Source: Methanovulcanius yangii (GTDB taxonomy: Archaea > Halobacteriota > Methanomicrobia > Methanomicrobiales > Methanomicrobiaceae). From it: 64,000 bases of DNA. The stretch's first letter is position 1. Every line of letters begins with the position of its first letter. Where the stretch lies: NCBI RefSeq assembly GCF_018687785.1, contig NZ_LTBL01000001.1, forward strand, positions 1,665,780 to 1,729,779. Reading direction: 5' to 3'. Position numbers and translations under genes: made by a program. The notes under the pieces were generated by a model, which saw only the letters and a program-made list of their open reading frames with translations, had not been told where the DNA came from and ran no database searches. Of this stretch, positions 29,742 through 51,134 are shown piece by piece.

Positions 29742-29973
29742 GAGCGTAAACGGAGAGAAGAAGGAAACAGACCGGAATTAGGTAAATTGATGAGATTTAC
29801 TATAAATATATTTTGGTTTTGACCTTTCCGAAAACAGGGTTTTTTTCACCTCCAAAACCCAAAATCACGGGCAGATAAGGATTATTTCCACTGGAGATGA
29901 ATCCGGAGGAGACCCGGGGGATTCCTGAAAAAACCCTAATCCTGCGTTTTCAAGTGGAAAAAAAGGGGTATTG
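29742..29973. promoter_or_regulatory. hel308 upstream region with two ORB-like elements
   Basis: A short intergenic region. It contains a TTTCCACTGGA half-site at 29885-29895 and a fuller ORB-like element at 29948-29970 (tttTCAAGTGGAA, A-tract, GGGGT), in the plus orientation. The GGGGT of the second lies 4 bases before the hel308 ATG at 29974, so it also works as the Shine-Dalgarno site. Initiator binding here could repress hel308, which is inference. Confidence 0.5.
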
Positions 29974-32253
29974 ATGAAAATTTCGGACCTGCCGCTCCCG
30001 GCTGAACTGGTCGGAGCCTACACCGCAAGGGGGATTGAGAACCTCTATCCCCCGCAGGCAGCATGTGTGGAGAAGGGCCTTCTCACCGGGGCAAACCTCC
30101 TTGTTGCCATCCCCACGGCATCGGGAAAGACCCTGATAGCGGAGATGGCGATGCACACCCACGTGGCGCAGGGAGGGCGCTCTCTCTACATTGTCCCCTT
30201 AAAGGCGCTGGCCTCCGAGAAGTACAGCGATTTTTCCGGCAAGGGCGCCTCGGTCGGGGTGGCGACCGGCGACCTCGACCGCCGGGACGCCTACCTCGGC
30301 CGAAATGACATCATCATCGCCACGTCGGAGAAGGTGGACTCGCTGCTGCGAAACGGTGCTCCCTGGCTGCGGGACGTAACCCTCCTCGTCGTGGATGAGG
30401 TCCACCTCATCGACTCCGAGGACCGCGGACCCACCCTCGAGATGGTGATCACCAAACTCCGGCACATGAACCCGGCGATGCAGGTGATCGCCCTCTCCGC
30501 CACTATCGGCAACCCCTCGACACTTGCCGGGTGGCTCGACGCCGACCTCGTCACCTCCGACTGGAGGCCGGTCGATCTCCGGGAGGGGGTCGCCTACCGC
30601 GACACCATCTACTTCGACGGCGACCGGCGGGAGTACCCCGCAACTACCAAACACGAGGATGTCAATCTCCTCCTCGACTGCGTCGCGGATGGCGGGCAGT
30701 GCCTGGTCTTCGTTTCCTCCCGGCGCAATGCCGAGGCGTACGCCAAACGGGCCGCTCAGGCGCTGAAAATCGATGAGCCCGCCCTTCAGGAGCTTGCAAC
30801 CCGCCTCGAATCGGCGGCCGAAACGGATATGGGGCGGATTCTGGCCACCTGCGTCCGCCACGGGGCGGCGTTCCACCATGCCGGGCTCACGCCCGCCCAG
30901 CGCTCGCTCGTGGAGCAGGGCTTTCGCGAGGGGGCCATCCGGGTCATCTCCTCCACCCCGACACTTGCCGCAGGCCTCAACCTGCCGGCCCGCCGGGTAA
31001 TCATCCGCGACTATCTCCGTTTCTCCGCCGGAGCGGGGATGACGCCCATCCCGGTCCGGGAGTACCGCCAGATGGCGGGAAGGGCTGGGCGGCCGCACCT
31101 GGACCCCTACGGTGAGGCGGTTCTCATCGCAAAGAGCGAGGACGCCGTCTACGATCTCTTCGAGGAGTACTGTACCGCACCCGATGAGGATGTCTCCTCG
31201 CGGTCCTCCTCCGAAGGGGTGCTCACCACCCACATCCTCTCGCTGATTGCAACCCGCTTCGTCCGGGACCGCGAGGGCCTTATGGCATTTCTGAAAAAGA
31301 CCTTCTATGCCCACCAGCACGGCGAGGAACGGCTGCTGCAGCGGATCGTCGATCGTTCTGTCGCATTTCTCACGGAGGCGGAGATGATCACGGACCTGAA
31401 CGGGCGTATGAACGCCACCGAATACGGCAATCTCACCTCCCGCCTCTACATCGACCCCCGTTCCGCGGAGATCATCACCCAGGGGCTCCGCGAACATAAT
31501 GACTGGTCGGTAGCGGGGCTTCTCCAGCTCCTCTGTACGACCCCCGACATGTACACCCTGTATGTGCGCAAAAACGACATGGAGATGCTCGAGCGGTTCT
31601 ACTATGCCCACGAAGACGAGCTCTGGGGCGAATTTTCCTACACCGAAATGGAAGAATTCTTCCGCGCGCTGAAGACGACGATGCTCCTGCTGGACTGGAT
31701 GGACGAGGTCGGCGAGGAGACGGTCTGCGAACGCTACGGTGTCGGACCGGGGGATATCTACAATGTGGTCGAGGGAGTTGGGTGGCTCGTTCATGCCGGC
31801 AGCCGCCTTGCACACCTGATGGCCCCCGTCCACGACGAGGCGATCGCAGCTGCGGAACTCAGGGTCAGGCACGGCGTCAAGGAAGAACTCATCCCGCTCG
31901 TGCGGATCCGCGGCATCGGACGGGTGCGTGCCCGCCGCCTGTATACGAACGGGATGACGACGCCCGCGGCCATCGTTGCCGCGGGCGTCGAGAAGGTCGG
32001 TGCAATCATCGGGAGAAAGGTCGCCGAATCGGCGATCCGGGAAATTGCGAGCGGAAGCTCAGGGAAAGGCCGGCAAGGCGGGCCTGCGGGGGGCACCGGT
32101 GAACCATCCGTCTCTGCCGTGACAAGGGATGGTAAACAACGGAAACGGAGCGGAGACACCCGTGGGGTGGAAGAACAGGGAAGTTCGAACGGCAGGGACG
32201 ATGACCCCCGCAACGGCCAGGCATCCCTTTTTTCCTTCGGGGATCATTCATAG
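29974..32253 (+). CDS. hel308: ATP-dependent DNA helicase Hel308
   Basis: A 759-residue superfamily 2 helicase (Ski2/HelQ-like) that unwinds lagging-strand forks and aids restart. Motifs in order: Q-region YPPQ, motif I IPTASGKTLIAEMA, motif II VVDEVHLI (DEVH), motif III ALSATIGN, motif IV LVFVSSRRNAEAYA, motif V SSTPTLAAGLNLPARRVII, motif VI QMAGRAGRPHLDPYGE. A winged-helix and ratchet domain follow, then a helix-hairpin-helix block RIRGIGRVRARRLYTNG. The tail (about 690-759) is low complexity and ends QASLFSFGDHS, a PIP-box-like QxxLxxF. ATG at 29974 has GGGGT at short spacing. cgi121 follows 12 bases after the stop. Confidence 0.95.
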   Translation: MKISDLPLPAELVGAYTARGIENLYPPQAACVEKGLLTGANLLVAIPTASGKTLIAEMAMHTHVAQGGRSLYIVPLKALASEKYSDFSGKGASVGVATGDLDRRDAYLGRNDIIIATSEKVDSLLRNGAPWLRDVTLLVVDEVHLIDSEDRGPTLEMVITKLRHMNPAMQVIALSATIGNPSTLAGWLDADLVTSDWRPVDLREGVAYRDTIYFDGDRREYPATTKHEDVNLLLDCVADGGQCLVFVSSRRNAEAYAKRAAQALKIDEPALQELATRLESAAETDMGRILATCVRHGAAFHHAGLTPAQRSLVEQGFREGAIRVISSTPTLAAGLNLPARRVIIRDYLRFSAGAGMTPIPVREYRQMAGRAGRPHLDPYGEAVLIAKSEDAVYDLFEEYCTAPDEDVSSRSSSEGVLTTHILSLIATRFVRDREGLMAFLKKTFYAHQHGEERLLQRIVDRSVAFLTEAEMITDLNGRMNATEYGNLTSRLYIDPRSAEIITQGLREHNDWSVAGLLQLLCTTPDMYTLYVRKNDMEMLERFYYAHEDELWGEFSYTEMEEFFRALKTTMLLLDWMDEVGEETVCERYGVGPGDIYNVVEGVGWLVHAGSRLAHLMAPVHDEAIAAAELRVRHGVKEELIPLVRIRGIGRVRARRLYTNGMTTPAAIVAAGVEKVGAIIGRKVAESAIREIASGSSGKGRQGGPAGGTGEPSVSAVTRDGKQRKRSGDTRGVEEQGSSNGRDDDPRNGQASLFSFGDHS

Positions 32254-33957: not shown

Positions 33958-33978
33958 ACCCCATCATTTCCACTGGAA
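33958..33978 (-). repeat. ORB element 1
   Basis: ACCCCATCATTTCCACTGGAA on the plus strand, reading on the minus strand as a TTCCAGTGGAAAT dyad followed by a G-run. It matches the archaeal origin recognition box and is the left flank of the AT-rich core. Confidence 0.75.
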
Positions 33979-34026
33979 TGGAAATCCATCCATGCAGCCC
34001 AGGTTGCAGCGAAAAATGAGAATGCT

Positions 34027-34130
34027 TGAAGAAAATTAAAGCTTAAATATCGATTAAAATTTAATTTATAGCTTTATTTGTTGCTATATTTTTATCACAC
34101 AACCTATATTTTACAATTTTGAATACATCA
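34027..34130. other. AT-rich putative duplex unwinding element
   Basis: A tract of about 100 bases made mostly of A and T (AATTTAATTTATAG, TATATTTTTATC and similar), sharply different from the GC-rich surroundings and positioned between inverted ORBs. It probably melts first at replication initiation. Confidence 0.6.
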
Positions 34131-34258
34131 CGCCCGCTTTCGTACTTCGCCGCTTCGGATCAAACAGGATAAATATGAACAAATGGAGATCACTCATTGA
34201 CTATTCTCAGGTAATATGAAGAAGATACCGTCAGGTCTTCTCATGGAGCCAAATTATT

Positions 34259-34280
34259 GTTGCAGTGGAAACAAAGGGGT
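34259..34280 (+). repeat. ORB element 2
   Basis: TGCAGTGGAAACAAAGGGGT at its core (34261-34280), the closest match in the window to the classic archaeal ORB: half dyad, GGAAAC, A-tract, GGGGT. Its G-run points away from the AT-rich core. Confidence 0.8.
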
Positions 34281-34715
34281 GGGGGTGATCACAGTTCCGG
34301 CAAGGTTGCAATTTCATAAAAATTCAGTTCACCGCCATCATTCACCCTCCCTGGAATGATCATCGCTTCTTCGAGGCTCCTGCCGGTCCATGTCCCTGCC
34401 ATGTTCCATGAGTCGGACTGTTCCGCCGTTTGCATCGTCAGACGGATAAACCCTTCCGGAAATCAACAGCACCCTGATGGATGATCGATGAATATGAGAG
34501 GCATCCCCTCAATGGCTGACCCCCTCCCCCACCCTGAAAAAGCGCGCACACAATGATGAGCGGAACCAAAGTCCTTGATCCCCACTCTCACCACAGGTAT
34601 CATCGCTTTGATGGGCGCTGGACATCCCATTTTGGGGAGGCACCCTCTCGGCCCCTCATCAAAAAATTAGTATTTCAACGGGTATCCCCGAAATTAAAAC
34701 AGAAACCTGAATATT

Positions 34716-34738
34716 TTTCCACTGGAAATAAAGGGGTT
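34716..34738 (+). repeat. ORB element 3
   Basis: A TTTCCACTGGAAATAAAGG core followed by GGTT, about 110 bases before the cdc6 start. In this position it could support both origin firing and autoregulation of cdc6. Confidence 0.78.
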
Positions 34739-34834
34739 GAGACACTTCTTCCGGGTATGATTCTGATGCCCCTTTCACCCAATTCACGTACCTTAAGTAG
34801 TTTCGTGCATCATGAATTGATATCGACACGATAT

Positions 34835-34840
34835 GGAGGT
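34835..34840 (+). promoter_or_regulatory. Strong Shine-Dalgarno site deciding the cdc6 start
   Basis: GGAGGT seven bases before a GTG at 34848, ideal spacing. The upstream in-frame ATG at 34833 overlaps this site and would place the start before it. Confidence 0.7.
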
Positions 34841-34847
34841 CGTGCCA

Positions 34848-36218
34848 GTGAACCAGATGGGGGAAAATATTGAAGATGATCAGGGGAATATGTCCCTTTC
34901 GGGATTTACTGACGATGCCGGAACCCCACCCGCTCCGGGTGGAAGCGGTGCATCCTCGATGGGACTGTTTGAAAAATATCTTACAAATCAGACAATTTTT
35001 AAGGAGCGGGAGGTTCTTCGCCACTCGTACCGTCCATCGATTCTCCCGCACCGGCAGCCGCAGATGGATACTGTTGCCTCGATCCTTGCGCCGGCCATCC
35101 GTGCAGAAACCCCTTCAAACATACTGATTTACGGCAAGACGGGAACCGGCAAGACCGCATCGGTCCGCTATGTAGGTGCGGAACTCGAGAAGGCCTGCGG
35201 GAGTATCGGTGTGGAATGCAATGTCATCCACTTAAACTGCGAGATCATCGACACCCAGTACCGGGTCTTCGCCCAGATTGCAGCGACCCTCGAGGACGAC
35301 GAAGGACGTTCGTCGGACCGTCCCTCCTCGAAGATCCCGATGACGGGGTGGCCGACCGATCAGGTGTACCATGAACTGAGGAATCTCATCGAGGCAATCG
35401 GCGGGGTCCATATCATAGTTCTCGACGAGATCGACAAGCTCGTCAAGAAATCAGGGGACGAGACGCTTTACAATCTCACCCGTATCAACTCGGAACTCAA
35501 AAATGCCCGCGTCTGCATGATCGGCATCTCCAACGACCTGCTCTTTACGAGTTTTCTCGATCACCGGGTTCTCTCCTCGCTTTCGGAGGAGGAGATCGTC
35601 TTTCCGCCGTATAACGCTCCGCAGCTCGTCGATATTCTCCAGCAGCGTGCCAATCAGGCATTCCACGAGAATGTCGTCGAGGAGGGAGTGATTCCCCTCT
35701 GTTCCGCCCTTGCCGCCCAGGAGCACGGAGATGCCCGGCGGGCGCTCGACCTTCTCAGGGTCTCGGGGGAACTTGCCGAACGGGAAAACGCGGCCGGGGT
35801 GACCGAGGAACATGTGCGTGCGGCACAGCGAAAGATCGATGCGGACAGCCTGATTGAGGGCATCAAGACCCTTCCCACGCAGTCGAAGGCGGTCCTTTAT
35901 GCGATGCTGCTCTTTCCCGAGATGGGCAAACAGGTCTTCACCTCCGGCGAGGTGGTCCAGGTCTATCGCGAGGTTGCCCAGGCGCTTGACCTTGATGTCC
36001 TGACGCACCGGCGTATCACCGACCTCATCTCCGAGCTGACGATGCTCGGTGTGATCAAGGCGCGCCTCGTCTCACGGGGGCGGTACGGGAGGACGAAGGA
36101 GATGTGGTTCGGCGCGGGGACACGCAAAATTCTCGAGACACTCCGGGAGGATTCACGGTTCGAGGATGCCCGTCTGAATCAGATTGATATATCCCGGTTC
36201 AAGAACTTATTCAGGTGA
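34848..36218 (+). CDS. orc1: Origin initiator protein Orc1/Cdc6
   Basis: A 456-residue AAA+ initiator that binds ORBs and loads the MCM helicase. After a short acidic, disordered N-terminus come the Cdc6 box YRPSILPHRQPQ, Walker A YGKTGTGKTASV (about residue 105), Walker B IIVLDEIDKLV, sensor 1 ARVCMIGISND and sensor 2 GDARRALDLLRVSGELA. A winged-helix domain for DNA binding fills the last 110 residues, with RRITDLISELTMLGVI. I take GTG 34848 as the start because of the GGAGGT site. Lrp gene begins 5 bases after its stop. It lies right beside the proposed origin. Confidence 0.95.
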   Translation: MNQMGENIEDDQGNMSLSGFTDDAGTPPAPGGSGASSMGLFEKYLTNQTIFKEREVLRHSYRPSILPHRQPQMDTVASILAPAIRAETPSNILIYGKTGTGKTASVRYVGAELEKACGSIGVECNVIHLNCEIIDTQYRVFAQIAATLEDDEGRSSDRPSSKIPMTGWPTDQVYHELRNLIEAIGGVHIIVLDEIDKLVKKSGDETLYNLTRINSELKNARVCMIGISNDLLFTSFLDHRVLSSLSEEEIVFPPYNAPQLVDILQQRANQAFHENVVEEGVIPLCSALAAQEHGDARRALDLLRVSGELAERENAAGVTEEHVRAAQRKIDADSLIEGIKTLPTQSKAVLYAMLLFPEMGKQVFTSGEVVQVYREVAQALDLDVLTHRRITDLISELTMLGVIKARLVSRGRYGRTKEMWFGAGTRKILETLREDSRFEDARLNQIDISRFKNLFR

Positions 36219-36715: not shown

Positions 36716-36734
36716 CGAAAGAGGTTGGTAAGTG

Positions 36735-37892
36735 ATGAGAGACTTTATTTCACAGCGTGCGCATGCCATCCCGCCGTCGGGCATCCGCCGGTTTTTCGAT
36801 ATCGTGCAGGAGATGGACGACGTCATCTCCCTGGGCGTCGGCGAACCCGACTACTCCACTCCCTGGGTTGCATGCCAGGCGGGCATCGCCTCCATTGAAC
36901 AGGGCCAGACGGCCTATACCAGCAACCGCGGTCTCCCGGCCCTTCGCGAGGAGATCGGGCGCTATCTCAAGCGCCGGTTCGGCGTCACGTACAACCCCTC
37001 GACCGAGATGATGGTGACCACCGGAGCATCGGAAGCGCTCGACGTTGCCATCCGGGCGGTGACCGACCCCGGGGATGAGATCCTCATCGGCGATCCGAGC
37101 TATGTGAGCTATGGACCGGGCGTGATGCTCGCCGGCGGAACGCCGGTGCTGGTCCCCTGCCAGGCGAAGGATGAGTTCCGGATGACGCCCGATACTCTCA
37201 TGGAGCGGATCACCCCGAAGTCGAAGGCGCTTCTCATCAACTTCCCGAACAACCCGACGGGCGGCGTGATGTCTCATGACGACTACCGGGCTATCGCTGA
37301 TGTCGTCGTCGACCATGACCTGATGGTCATCTCGGATGAGATCTACACCGAGCTCACCTACGAAGGGGAGATGGCCTCGGCGGCGGAGATCCCGGAGCTT
37401 CGGGATCGGACGATCCTCATCAACGGGTTCTCCAAGGCGTACGCCATGACCGGATGGCGTATCGGGTATATATGCGCACCCAGGGAGCTCTGCGATGCAG
37501 CACTCAAGATCCACCAGTACATCATGCTCTCGGCGCCTACGATGTCGCAGTACGCGGCGGTAGGTGCCCTCAGGGGCGGAGACATCGCGCGGGAGGAGAT
37601 GGTGACCGAGTACCAGATGCGGCGCAACATGTTCGTTCGCGGTCTCAATCGCATCGGTCTTCCCTGCCATATGCCCAAGGGCGCCTTCTATGCCTTCCCG
37701 TCCGTCCGTGATACCGGCATATCGGATGTCGAGTTTGCCGAACGTCTCGTCACCGAACAGCATGTCGCGGTCGTCCCGGGCAGCGTCTTCGGCCCGGCGG
37801 CGGAGGGGCACCTCCGCTGCGCGTACGCGGTCTCCCGCGACGACCTGAGAACCGCCGTCGATAGGATTGGGGAGTTTCTGGAGACGCTGTAA
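36735..37892 (+). CDS. Class I/II aminotransferase (aspartate aminotransferase-like)
   Basis: A 385-residue PLP enzyme of fold type I. Blocks include LGVGEPDYSTPW, the TGASEALDVAIRAV phosphate site, NFPNNPTGGVM, DEIYTELTY and the PLP-lysine motif NGFSKAYAMTGWRIGY; the C-terminal substrate Arg is in HLRCAYAVS. It moves an amino group between an amino acid (Asp, aromatic or other) and 2-oxoglutarate. The exact substrate is not decidable by eye. Placement after an Lrp-type gene fits an Lrp-aminotransferase pair found in methanogens. ATG at 36735 follows GAGGTTGG by about 10 bases. Confidence 0.92.
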   Translation: MRDFISQRAHAIPPSGIRRFFDIVQEMDDVISLGVGEPDYSTPWVACQAGIASIEQGQTAYTSNRGLPALREEIGRYLKRRFGVTYNPSTEMMVTTGASEALDVAIRAVTDPGDEILIGDPSYVSYGPGVMLAGGTPVLVPCQAKDEFRMTPDTLMERITPKSKALLINFPNNPTGGVMSHDDYRAIADVVVDHDLMVISDEIYTELTYEGEMASAAEIPELRDRTILINGFSKAYAMTGWRIGYICAPRELCDAALKIHQYIMLSAPTMSQYAAVGALRGGDIAREEMVTEYQMRRNMFVRGLNRIGLPCHMPKGAFYAFPSVRDTGISDVEFAERLVTEQHVAVVPGSVFGPAAEGHLRCAYAVSRDDLRTAVDRIGEFLETL

Positions 37893-38132: not shown

Positions 38133-38154
38133 AACCCCTTGATTTCCACTGGAA
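38133..38154 (-). repeat. ORB element 4
   Basis: AACCCCTTGATTTCCACTGG and two more bases on the plus strand; on the minus strand it reads TTCCAGTGGAAATCAAGGGG. It lies in a longer near-repeat shared with element 5. Confidence 0.75.
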
Positions 38155-38268
38155 CTTTCCTCTTTTTGGGGGGCGCGGTTCGGCGACACATGTGCCCGGT
38201 TTTCTTTCTGGTGTTACGATCCACTGCTTTTCGTAAGAACGGATGATGTCGGAATAACCGGGAGGGAT

Positions 38269-38333: not shown

Positions 38334-38354
38334 AACCCCTTGATTTCCACTGGA
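38334..38354 (-). repeat. ORB element 5
   Basis: AACCCCTTGATTTCCACTGG core on the plus strand, same orientation as element 4 and identical to it over 20 bases, about 200 bases further right and about 90 bases before purA. Confidence 0.75.
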
Positions 38355-38444
38355 GAACCGGCGCAGATGCGTTTTTTCCCTCCCGGGGCATCTCGCATTG
38401 TAAGGTTTATCATCCCCCTTTTCCTATCTCTACATGATTGAAGA

Positions 38445-49333: not shown

Positions 49334-50635
49334 TTGAAGCTCCATGAAATCCGAGATCCAGTTTATGGATTTGTGCAATTTGATGATCTAGAAAAAGAGG
49401 TAATTTCGAGTCCATTTTTTCAGAGACTTCGCCGGCTTAAACAACTCTCACTAACTGACATGGTTTATCCTGGGGCGAATCATACTCGATTTGAGCATTC
49501 TATTGGAGTAATGTATTTAGCCTCAAAAATGTTTGATTCTATTACCAATAATCGTGAAAATATAAAACAACTTGAAGAAATTGAATATTATGATAAATAT
49601 GCTCTCTATAAAGATAGGAAAATCATTAGATTAGCAGCATTGCTTCATGATATTGGTCATGGGCCTTTTTCACATGCTTCCGAGGCAATTTTTCCAATAA
49701 ATCCAACCACAAAAAAAGCCTATTCACATGAAGACTTCTCTGAGGCAATAATAAATGGTCCAATAAAGGAAATTATTGAAGGAAATCGAAAGAACAATGC
49801 AGATATAAAATGTGAGGATATTTCGAGTTTAATTCAGGGAAGGAATACAAAAATAAGTAGACGATTAATCTGGAAACCCTTGATCTCTAGTCAATTGGAT
49901 GCCGATAGAGGGGATTATTTGATTAGGGATTCTCTGCATACCGGAGTTCGTTATGGAACCTATGACAGAGATAGGTTAATTGTCGGAATGAGACTTGGTC
50001 AGATGCCGGAAGATGAGGGAGGTGGCACAATTCTGGGTATAGAAGAAAATAGTTGGCATGTTGCTGAGTCTTTAATTCTTGCTCGGTATCAAATCTCGCT
50101 ACAAGTTTATTATCATAAAATTACTAGAGCGTATAACCTGATGCTTGAGAGCGCATTGAGAGAAATGTATCCCGACGGCTTACCTTCCCCACAAAATGAA
50201 CCAGATGCATTTTTAGAAATTGACGATGGACTAGTTATCAATATGTTAAAACAGGGAGAAGGTGGAAAATGGGGGAAAGCAATTTTAGAAAGAAATCATG
50301 TAAAATGCGTTCATGACGCTTGGCATGAACATACAAAGACTGAAATGATATTATCAGAACTCGAAAATTATTGCAATTCTAAAGGTTTTGAGCATTTTAA
50401 GGATGCATCGATCAGAAATGAATGGTATAAATTAGAACAAACCGGAGAGAATGACAATGAAATCATGATAATTGATGAACACTATAAAGCGAATCCAATC
50501 TCCGAATATTCGAAATTAATAGAACATATTAATTCCACTCCACGTCCAGTAAGATTTTATATTGACAAGGATTCGTATTCAGATTCAGTAAAAAATGACA
50601 TTGATGAAATAATTATGAGGTGCCAGAATGAGTGA
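49334..50635 (+). CDS. HD-domain phosphohydrolase, YwfO/SAMHD1-like
   Basis: A 433-residue protein with the HD motif of SAMHD1-type dNTP hydrolases: IRDPVYGFVQ at the start, FFQRLRRLKQLSLTDMVYPGANHTRFEHSIGV (first His), LLHDIGHGPFSHASE (HD pair) and LDADRGDYLIRD (last Asp). The likely activity is removal of triphosphate from (d)NTPs. TTG at 49334 is the start, with GGAGGT 5 bases upstream. Codons are strongly AT-rich compared with all neighbours, a sign of transfer. The last 8 bases overlap the next gene. In Bacillus, homologues ywfO and ywgA are neighbours; the pairing is repeated here. Confidence 0.85.
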   Translation: MKLHEIRDPVYGFVQFDDLEKEVISSPFFQRLRRLKQLSLTDMVYPGANHTRFEHSIGVMYLASKMFDSITNNRENIKQLEEIEYYDKYALYKDRKIIRLAALLHDIGHGPFSHASEAIFPINPTTKKAYSHEDFSEAIINGPIKEIIEGNRKNNADIKCEDISSLIQGRNTKISRRLIWKPLISSQLDADRGDYLIRDSLHTGVRYGTYDRDRLIVGMRLGQMPEDEGGGTILGIEENSWHVAESLILARYQISLQVYYHKITRAYNLMLESALREMYPDGLPSPQNEPDAFLEIDDGLVINMLKQGEGGKWGKAILERNHVKCVHDAWHEHTKTEMILSELENYCNSKGFEHFKDASIRNEWYKLEQTGENDNEIMIIDEHYKANPISEYSKLIEHINSTPRPVRFYIDKDSYSDSVKNDIDEIIMRCQNE

Positions 50636-51134
50636 AATGCAACATGAACTTGCCGTCATTTGTAATTTAATTAAAATTATGAAGGAAAACTATCCTCATC
50701 AAATAGGTAAAACTGCAATTCAGAAAATGGTGTATTTACTGACGCGAGAAAAAATTACGAACCATAGATATTCGTTGTATAATTATGGCCCCTATTCCTC
50801 AGACGTGATGAGAGCGTTGGATATATGCGAATATTATAATAATATAGATATTGAATGGAAAAAAGATATTGGATATGAGATCTCCCCCGGTAAAAACGTT
50901 GATTTTGGAAATTTGGATCCAGATGAGATAGGAAAAATAACCAAAACTGTGACCAAATATTCAAGTTATAATGCATTAGATCTTTCAATAATTACAACTG
51001 CATTATATGTTCTTGATAATGAATCCATAAATTCGGATCAAGAATTAGTAGATGCTGTGATAGAAATTAAGCCAAAATATAAGAATAAAGTAGAGAAGAT
51101 TTTAAGAGATTCAAATATAATCCCTATAAATTAA
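50628..51134 (+). CDS. YwgA-like partner of the HD hydrolase
   Basis: A 168-residue soluble protein that starts within the last 8 bases of the HD gene. It shows the IGKTAIQKMVYLLTREKITNHRYSLYNYGPYSSDVMRAL block, reminiscent of YwgA and of the Panacea (DUF4065) family, whose members can be antitoxins. The remainder is helical and AT-coded. An adjacent, overlapping hydrolase and this protein could be a toxin-antitoxin or defence pair; that is inference. The Panacea relation is a motif judgement, and alignment would be needed. Confidence 0.6.
   Translation: MSEMQHELAVICNLIKIMKENYPHQIGKTAIQKMVYLLTREKITNHRYSLYNYGPYSSDVMRALDICEYYNNIDIEWKKDIGYEISPGKNVDFGNLDPDEIGKITKTVTKYSSYNALDLSIITTALYVLDNESINSDQELVDAVIEIKPKYKNKVEKILRDSNIIPIN

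Follow-up and report, generated by a model that had tools for sequence, protein, structure and literature searches.

The closest described counterparts of the origin reported here are oriC1 of Sulfolobus/Saccharolobus and oriC1 of the haloarchaea. The former is laid out as ORB2-DUE-ORB3, with Orc1-1 as initiator and a further element, ucm/UBP, as a fixed motif midway between the two origin recognition boxes (ORBs), the whole element taking up about 130 bp (PMC12141716). In haloarchaea, outward-pointing inverted ORBs with G-strings enclose an AT-rich core upstream of cdc6 and extra ORBs lie downstream of the gene; in Haloarcula hispanica a region of 11 ORBs (oriC2D) placed directly after cdc6E holds oriC2 back, probably through titration (PMC3936714). 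Thermococcales, too, have ORBs away from the intergenic core, as ORBs and mini-ORBs inside the DP1 (polD small-subunit) gene (PMC2643942). The parts of the Ori-Finder 2 report considered here name ORB-bearing intergenic regions as oriCs, give the Ori-Finder 2/DoriC ORB expression for Methanomicrobia as TCCA[GC]T[GT]GAAA[CT][AG]A[AT]GGGGT and note an extra ORB region beside purO and cgi in Haloferax (PMC4164010).

We analysed a stretch of 64 kb from the Methanomicrobiaceae methanogen Methanovulcanius yangii, referred to as the window. Methanogens of the order Methanomicrobiales are major methane producers, and a literature search found no published study of origin mapping in the order. ORBs were sought with the pattern TTTCCASTGGAAANNAAGGGG, allowing up to 3 mismatches, and the features of the window that enter the argument are as follows.

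29885-29897, plus strand: weak ORB-like dyad upstream of hel308, 1 mismatch to the dyad, without the GGGG
29948-29968, plus strand: left satellite ORB, TTTCAAGTGGAAAAAAAGGGG, 1 mismatch, 5 nt upstream of the hel308 ATG (29974)
29974-32253, plus strand: hel308 DNA helicase gene (NF002654, 1027.6 bits, cut-off 887)
33959-33979, minus strand: left core ORB, ATTCCAGTGGAAATGATGGGG, 2 mismatches to TTTCCASTGGAAANNAAGGGG, G-tail outward (left)
34026-34125, unstranded: AT-rich core, candidate duplex unwinding element
34168-34178, plus strand: TATA-like box, part of a candidate promoter
34197-34209, plus strand: initiator-like TTGACTATTCTCA, about 25 bp past the TATA-like box, candidate promoter
34220-34241, unstranded: inverted repeat AGAAGATACCGTCAGGTCTTCT, 17 bp inside the right core ORB
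34259-34279, plus strand: right core ORB, GTTGCAGTGGAAACAAAGGGG, 2 mismatches to TTTCCASTGGAAANNAAGGGG, G-tail outward (right)
34716-34736, plus strand: cdc6-proximal ORB, TTTCCACTGGAAATAAAGGGG, 0 mismatches to TTTCCASTGGAAANNAAGGGG
34833-36218, plus strand: cdc6/orc1 initiator gene, Orc1-1 type (NF001625, 580.6 bits)
36732-37892, plus strand: aminotransferase gene (aat), landmark for the right satellites
38135-38155, minus strand: right satellite ORB 1, 1 mismatch
38336-38356, minus strand: right satellite ORB 2, 1 mismatch, 201 bp from ORB 1

The original prediction had named three ORB-type sites, the first two opposed around an AT-rich stretch, and had read them as the active oriC next to cdc6. 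All three are present, at 33959 (minus), 34259 (plus) and 34716 (plus), and the opposed orientation of the first two around AT-rich DNA is borne out, the stretch at 34026-34125 having 82% AT against a window mean of about 42%. These two core ORBs are mutually inverted, point their G-tails outward and lie 279 bp apart, a gap that recurs in the nearest two relatives (L009 and L010), where the left core ORB is also conserved. The ORB at 34716 has the same orientation as that at 34259, and its counterpart in many relatives lies about 110 nt upstream of cdc6. The earlier listing was incomplete, however, since it missed the ORBs at 29948 (plus), 38135 (minus) and 38336 (minus), and its description of the origin, sound for the core layout, left out both these satellites and the inverted repeat. 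Six ORB matches in the window compare with a mean of 0.01 in 100 shuffles, which excludes chance, and the same six, lying within 8.4 kb, are the only matches in the whole genome of 2.29 Mb, in which the reversed-pattern control gave 2 hits. All six depart from the Ori-Finder 2 expression quoted above by 0-2 mismatches (PMC4164010). The window reaches the AT content of its core at a single further place, near 51056, and in most relatives the corresponding core exceeds the AT level of its locus.

The product of the adjacent cdc6 gene matches S. solfataricus Cdc6-1 (2qby_A) with an E value of 1.2e-98 and A. pernix ORC1 (2v1u_A) with one of 1.3e-98, and matches Orc1-3 (2qby_B) far more weakly (E 2.5e-37). 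Sequence comparison makes S. solfataricus Orc1-1 and A. pernix ORC1, both of which have been crystallised on origin DNA, the orthologues of the window initiator. The gene has its own conserved TATA-like box at 34790-34799 and a GGAGGT site at 34835, whose placement suggests a start codon slightly downstream of the mechanical ORF start.

GC skew, which had been proposed as a check on the origin, was sampled rather than traced continuously (37 stretches of 20 kb taken every 60 kb, together with the window and one piece of 10 kb). The sampled skew forms a single V, whose lowest point, at about 1.69-1.71 Mb, coincides with the ORB cluster and whose highest point, at about 0.56-0.62 Mb, is the antipode of the cluster on the 2.279 Mb contig. 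Stretches between 0.66 Mb and the window mostly have negative skew, and those from the window on round to about 0.56 Mb mostly have positive skew; at fine scale, the minimum within the window falls at 31,558, 2.4 kb off the core. A skew with one V is the trace left by a single bidirectional origin. The locus therefore combines the position at a skew extremum with the other marks of the oriC1 type, namely inverted ORBs flanking an AT-rich stretch and an adjacent gene of the Orc1-1 class, and we consider it very probably the single chromosomal origin, of oriC1 type, of this Methanomicrobiaceae methanogen. The skew V, the Orc1-1-type initiator and the ORB pattern match strongly support the reading as oriC in silico, and that the origin is active we infer.

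Dormant ORB-bearing origins are described in Haloferax mediterranei (PMC4595724), and the genome studied here encodes a second Orc1/Cdc6 paralogue at C1:209186 (0.209 Mb), so that replication might be imagined to start elsewhere, for example at this second cdc6, with the origin in the window dormant. Against this, the single skew V is centred on the window, and at the second cdc6 we found no ORB in the whole-genome pattern scan, no skew switch in the sampled skew and no convincing repeat array, the repeats there looking like chance or coding similarity. We rejected the second cdc6 locus as an origin and regard a dormant origin in the window as extremely improbable.

The core itself is of the ordinary, well-known oriC1-type plan, and its layout indicates that this plan holds in Methanomicrobiales. 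By analogy with Sulfolobus oriC1, Orc1-1 made from the adjacent gene would bind the inverted ORBs at 33959 and 34259; going by Sulfolobus and haloarchaeal work, the bound initiator would direct MCM onto the AT-rich stretch enclosed by this pair, and two forks would depart from there bidirectionally. The locus shares with Sulfolobus/Saccharolobus oriC1 the Orc1-1 orthologue, the adjacent initiator gene, the inverted G-string ORBs around an AT-rich stretch and the presence of an extra element between the ORBs, and differs in its 279-bp spacing, in being the single origin and in having satellites about 4 kb away (PMC12141716). The extra element differs too: no conserved motif midway between the ORBs like ucm/UBP was found, and the element here is an inverted repeat next to the right ORB, its sequence differing from clade to clade. 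From haloarchaeal oriC1, with which it shares the outward inverted ORBs, the AT-rich core upstream of cdc6 and the extra ORBs beyond that gene, it differs in that the ORBs do not all carry the long G-stretch specific to halophiles. A haloarchaeon in our set (G071; L195 and L193) has a core of inverted outward ORBs with one more nearer cdc6, and satellites of its own, an ORB 1.7 kb past cdc6 and another beside cgi121 about 21 kb off. This suggests that ORBs dispersed around oriC1 are older than the order. Such dispersal is already known from Haloarcula, G071, Haloferax and Thermococcales, so that the fixed layout seen here is a variant of it; as in Thermococcales, ORBs lie at neighbouring genes outside the core, at hel308 and after the aminotransferase gene rather than inside DP1 (PMC2643942). 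The parts of the Ori-Finder 2 report considered here describe no conserved satellite layout of this kind (PMC4164010).

Across the window and 80 related loci, all 327 of 327 ORB hits fall into three zones, to the left of hel308, in the spacer between moaB and cdc6, and beyond the aminotransferase gene, and none falls in the roughly 808 kb outside them; many of the loci come from close relatives, so the 327 hits are not independent events. A scan of the family found ORB hits in 28 of 28 genomes, against 2 hits in about 62 Mb for the control, and in the single-contig genomes examined in the family nearly all hits form one cluster of 4-13 kb. Several relatives have ORB matches far from the origin, so an ORB does not always mark an origin neighbourhood. 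Strong distal ORBs occur in several Methanoregulaceae (L108-L118 and L099-L107; for example L113:3010 and L109:3078), where a TATA-like box, AAGGGGTATAAAA, comes directly after most of them, as though these ORBs were placed at promoters; no gene common to the distal ORBs of the relatives was evident by eye. In the genome G009 two ORBs lie 50 bp apart (L107:3012 and 3062), downstream of adjacent second-cdc6-like and mch-like genes, and TATAG repeats flank each.

The right satellites lie between the aminotransferase gene and purA, two genes beyond cdc6, and in Methanomicrobiaceae the two members are spaced by about 190-270 bp. They were found only in loci of the Methanomicrobiaceae type; in Methanoregulaceae the pair is absent at up to 3 mismatches, which makes it dispensable there. 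The aat-purA spacer is otherwise unalignable (37% mean identity over 14 species), leaving the ORBs as nearly its only conserved blocks. In two loci (L034 and L040) purA has gone from this position and the pair remains beside the aminotransferase gene, which assigns it to the origin neighbourhood. The readable relocated purA genes, those of the L040 genome and of Methanocalculus, have no ORB within 1.5 kb upstream, the best candidate having 7 mismatches; in the genome of L034 purA was found as a fragment only. Regulation of purA by the right satellites was rejected on these grounds.

As in oriC2D of Haloarcula hispanica, the ORBs at 38135 and 38336 lie downstream of cdc6 without an unwinding element, the spacer having 51% AT here and an AT fraction of 0.39-0.52 in most relatives; they number two and stand two genes further on, in contrast to the dense cluster of 11 directly after cdc6E (PMC3936714). 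Since the spacer is not AT-rich, the pair would most likely bind Orc1 without unwinding and so limit or tether free initiator, as proposed for the haloarchaeal downstream ORB region; on this analogy a titrating or tethering role for the right satellites has, in our judgement, an even chance of being correct. Going by the parts of its description considered here, Ori-Finder 2 would probably call this spacer a possible separate oriC, like the Haloferax purO-cgi region (PMC4164010). In Methanoculleus the pair does diverge, with a minus-strand ORB first and a plus-strand one about 195 bp on, and resembles a core, as a second, duplicated origin core would, yet AT content near background, the absence of any excess of inverted repeats beside the satellite dyads and the common direction of both members in the window make such a duplication very unlikely.

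The left satellite ORB belongs to a more widespread element. Ahead of hel308, a half-dyad with a G-string occurs in 8 of 10 other genomes of the same order and in 0 of 19 from other orders, in most species as half a dyad only; its distance to the hel308 start ranges from a few nt to about 25 nt. Where hel308 sits 22-45 kb from the origin the element has stayed with the gene, and for this reason it looks like an operator. In several species it closely follows a TATA-like box, and we infer that it there overlaps the expected transcription start. An explanation of the GGGG as a plain Shine-Dalgarno sequence is unlikely, since in Methanoregula it lies farther upstream of the start codon. The element is most simply read as an operator, with Orc1 as its obvious candidate ligand, a pairing that on the sequence pattern could as easily hold as fail; binding by Orc1 is less certain because most species have the half dyad only. 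Its most likely role would be that of an Orc1 operator through which this repair helicase is coupled to the level of the initiator, a control with less support than the steps proposed for the origin itself. It offers a testable tie between the replication initiator and a fork-repair helicase.

Two further accounts of the satellites have to be weighed against their having a part in replication control. The ORBs outside the core might constitute a small Orc1 transcription regulon instead, as the gene-linked position of the hel308 element at the start codon and the distal Methanoregulaceae ORBs that often run directly into a TATA-like box would have it; in Saccharolobus the paralogue Orc1-2 regulates transcription in the response to DNA damage (PMC9738581). 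A purA without an ORB, the pair that stays at aat and the lack of any ORB beyond the 8.4 kb in this genome tell against a regulon, which we think possible and rather doubtful. Somewhat less probable still is that only the core (33959-34736) functions and that the satellites are inert remnants of an older, larger ORB array. The loss of the right pair in Methanoregulaceae and the outer member's orientation, which flips between genera, are what one would expect of remnants, but unused remnants should decay, and here the ORBs outlast nearly everything else in the aat-purA spacer while the hel308 element is kept after its separation from the origin. Taken as participants in replication control, the conserved satellites complete a defined six-site system in which initiator titration could be tested in a single-origin archaeon, and satellite ORBs together with an ORB-type hel308 operator would, if true, link initiator level with fork repair.

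Within the origin, alignments of close relatives (L009, L010 and L018) show a block at 34155-34243 conserved far above its surroundings. In Methanoculleus it reads, in order, TATA-like box, a TGACTATTGTCA-like sequence (TGACTATTnTCA) about 25 bp on, inverted repeat and right ORB; Methanoregulaceae have a different sequence (TTTATATA, then ATGGCTGTTTTT) and many still have an inverted repeat beside the right ORB. In comparison with shuffled sequence, the 50 bp on the inner side of the right ORB contain inverted repeats at p<=0.05 in 34% of 53 loci of the order, while the figure is 0-11% for each of six control places (outside right, inside left, outside left, mid-spacer, cdc6-proximal ORB and satellites). 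In the Methanoculleus repeat 3 of 8 pairs have changed on both sides with pairing kept; taken by itself, the copy in the window (34220-34241) does not reach significance. From these comparisons the repeat is probably a real conserved element, fixed in position and variable in sequence.

This repeat would be an additional part of the origin that makes it asymmetric, either as a hairpin that is transcribed or as a dyad bound by protein. Its form could be that of an RNA hairpin, of a protein-binding dyad resembling Sulfolobus ucm (PMC12141716) or of an extruded DNA hairpin. No known RNA family reaches its gathering threshold in the window, the core giving sub-threshold noise only, and folding 34155-34260 as a single RNA sequence gives an unremarkable result (z -0.5). 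In Methanoculleus the TATA-like box may be followed by a short leader peptide (M-T-I-x-I), whose ORF is closed or non-ATG in some species. The candidate promoter and hairpin inside the origin have less support than the origin steps, and we think it improbable that in Methanomicrobiales origins a short RNA starts from the TATA-like box and runs toward the cdc6-side ORB, where a hairpin conserved in structure and not in sequence would stop or anchor it. If true, such an in-origin transcription unit would give an archaeal origin a built-in asymmetry, through RNA-assisted melting or priming. A literature search found no description of a hairpin or transcript inside archaeal origins, and as far as we found an inverted repeat beside one ORB is an undescribed origin part. 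Three features of this locus deserve a second look: the hel308-linked element, the conserved ring of ORBs around the core, and the repeat next to the cdc6-side ORB.

Elsewhere in the window, the stretch at 49334-51134 has low GC (34-42%) and contains the gene of an HD-domain-like protein (433 aa) followed by that of a small protein which by eye resembles a SocA/Panacea-type antitoxin, possibly an acquired toxin-antitoxin or defence module.
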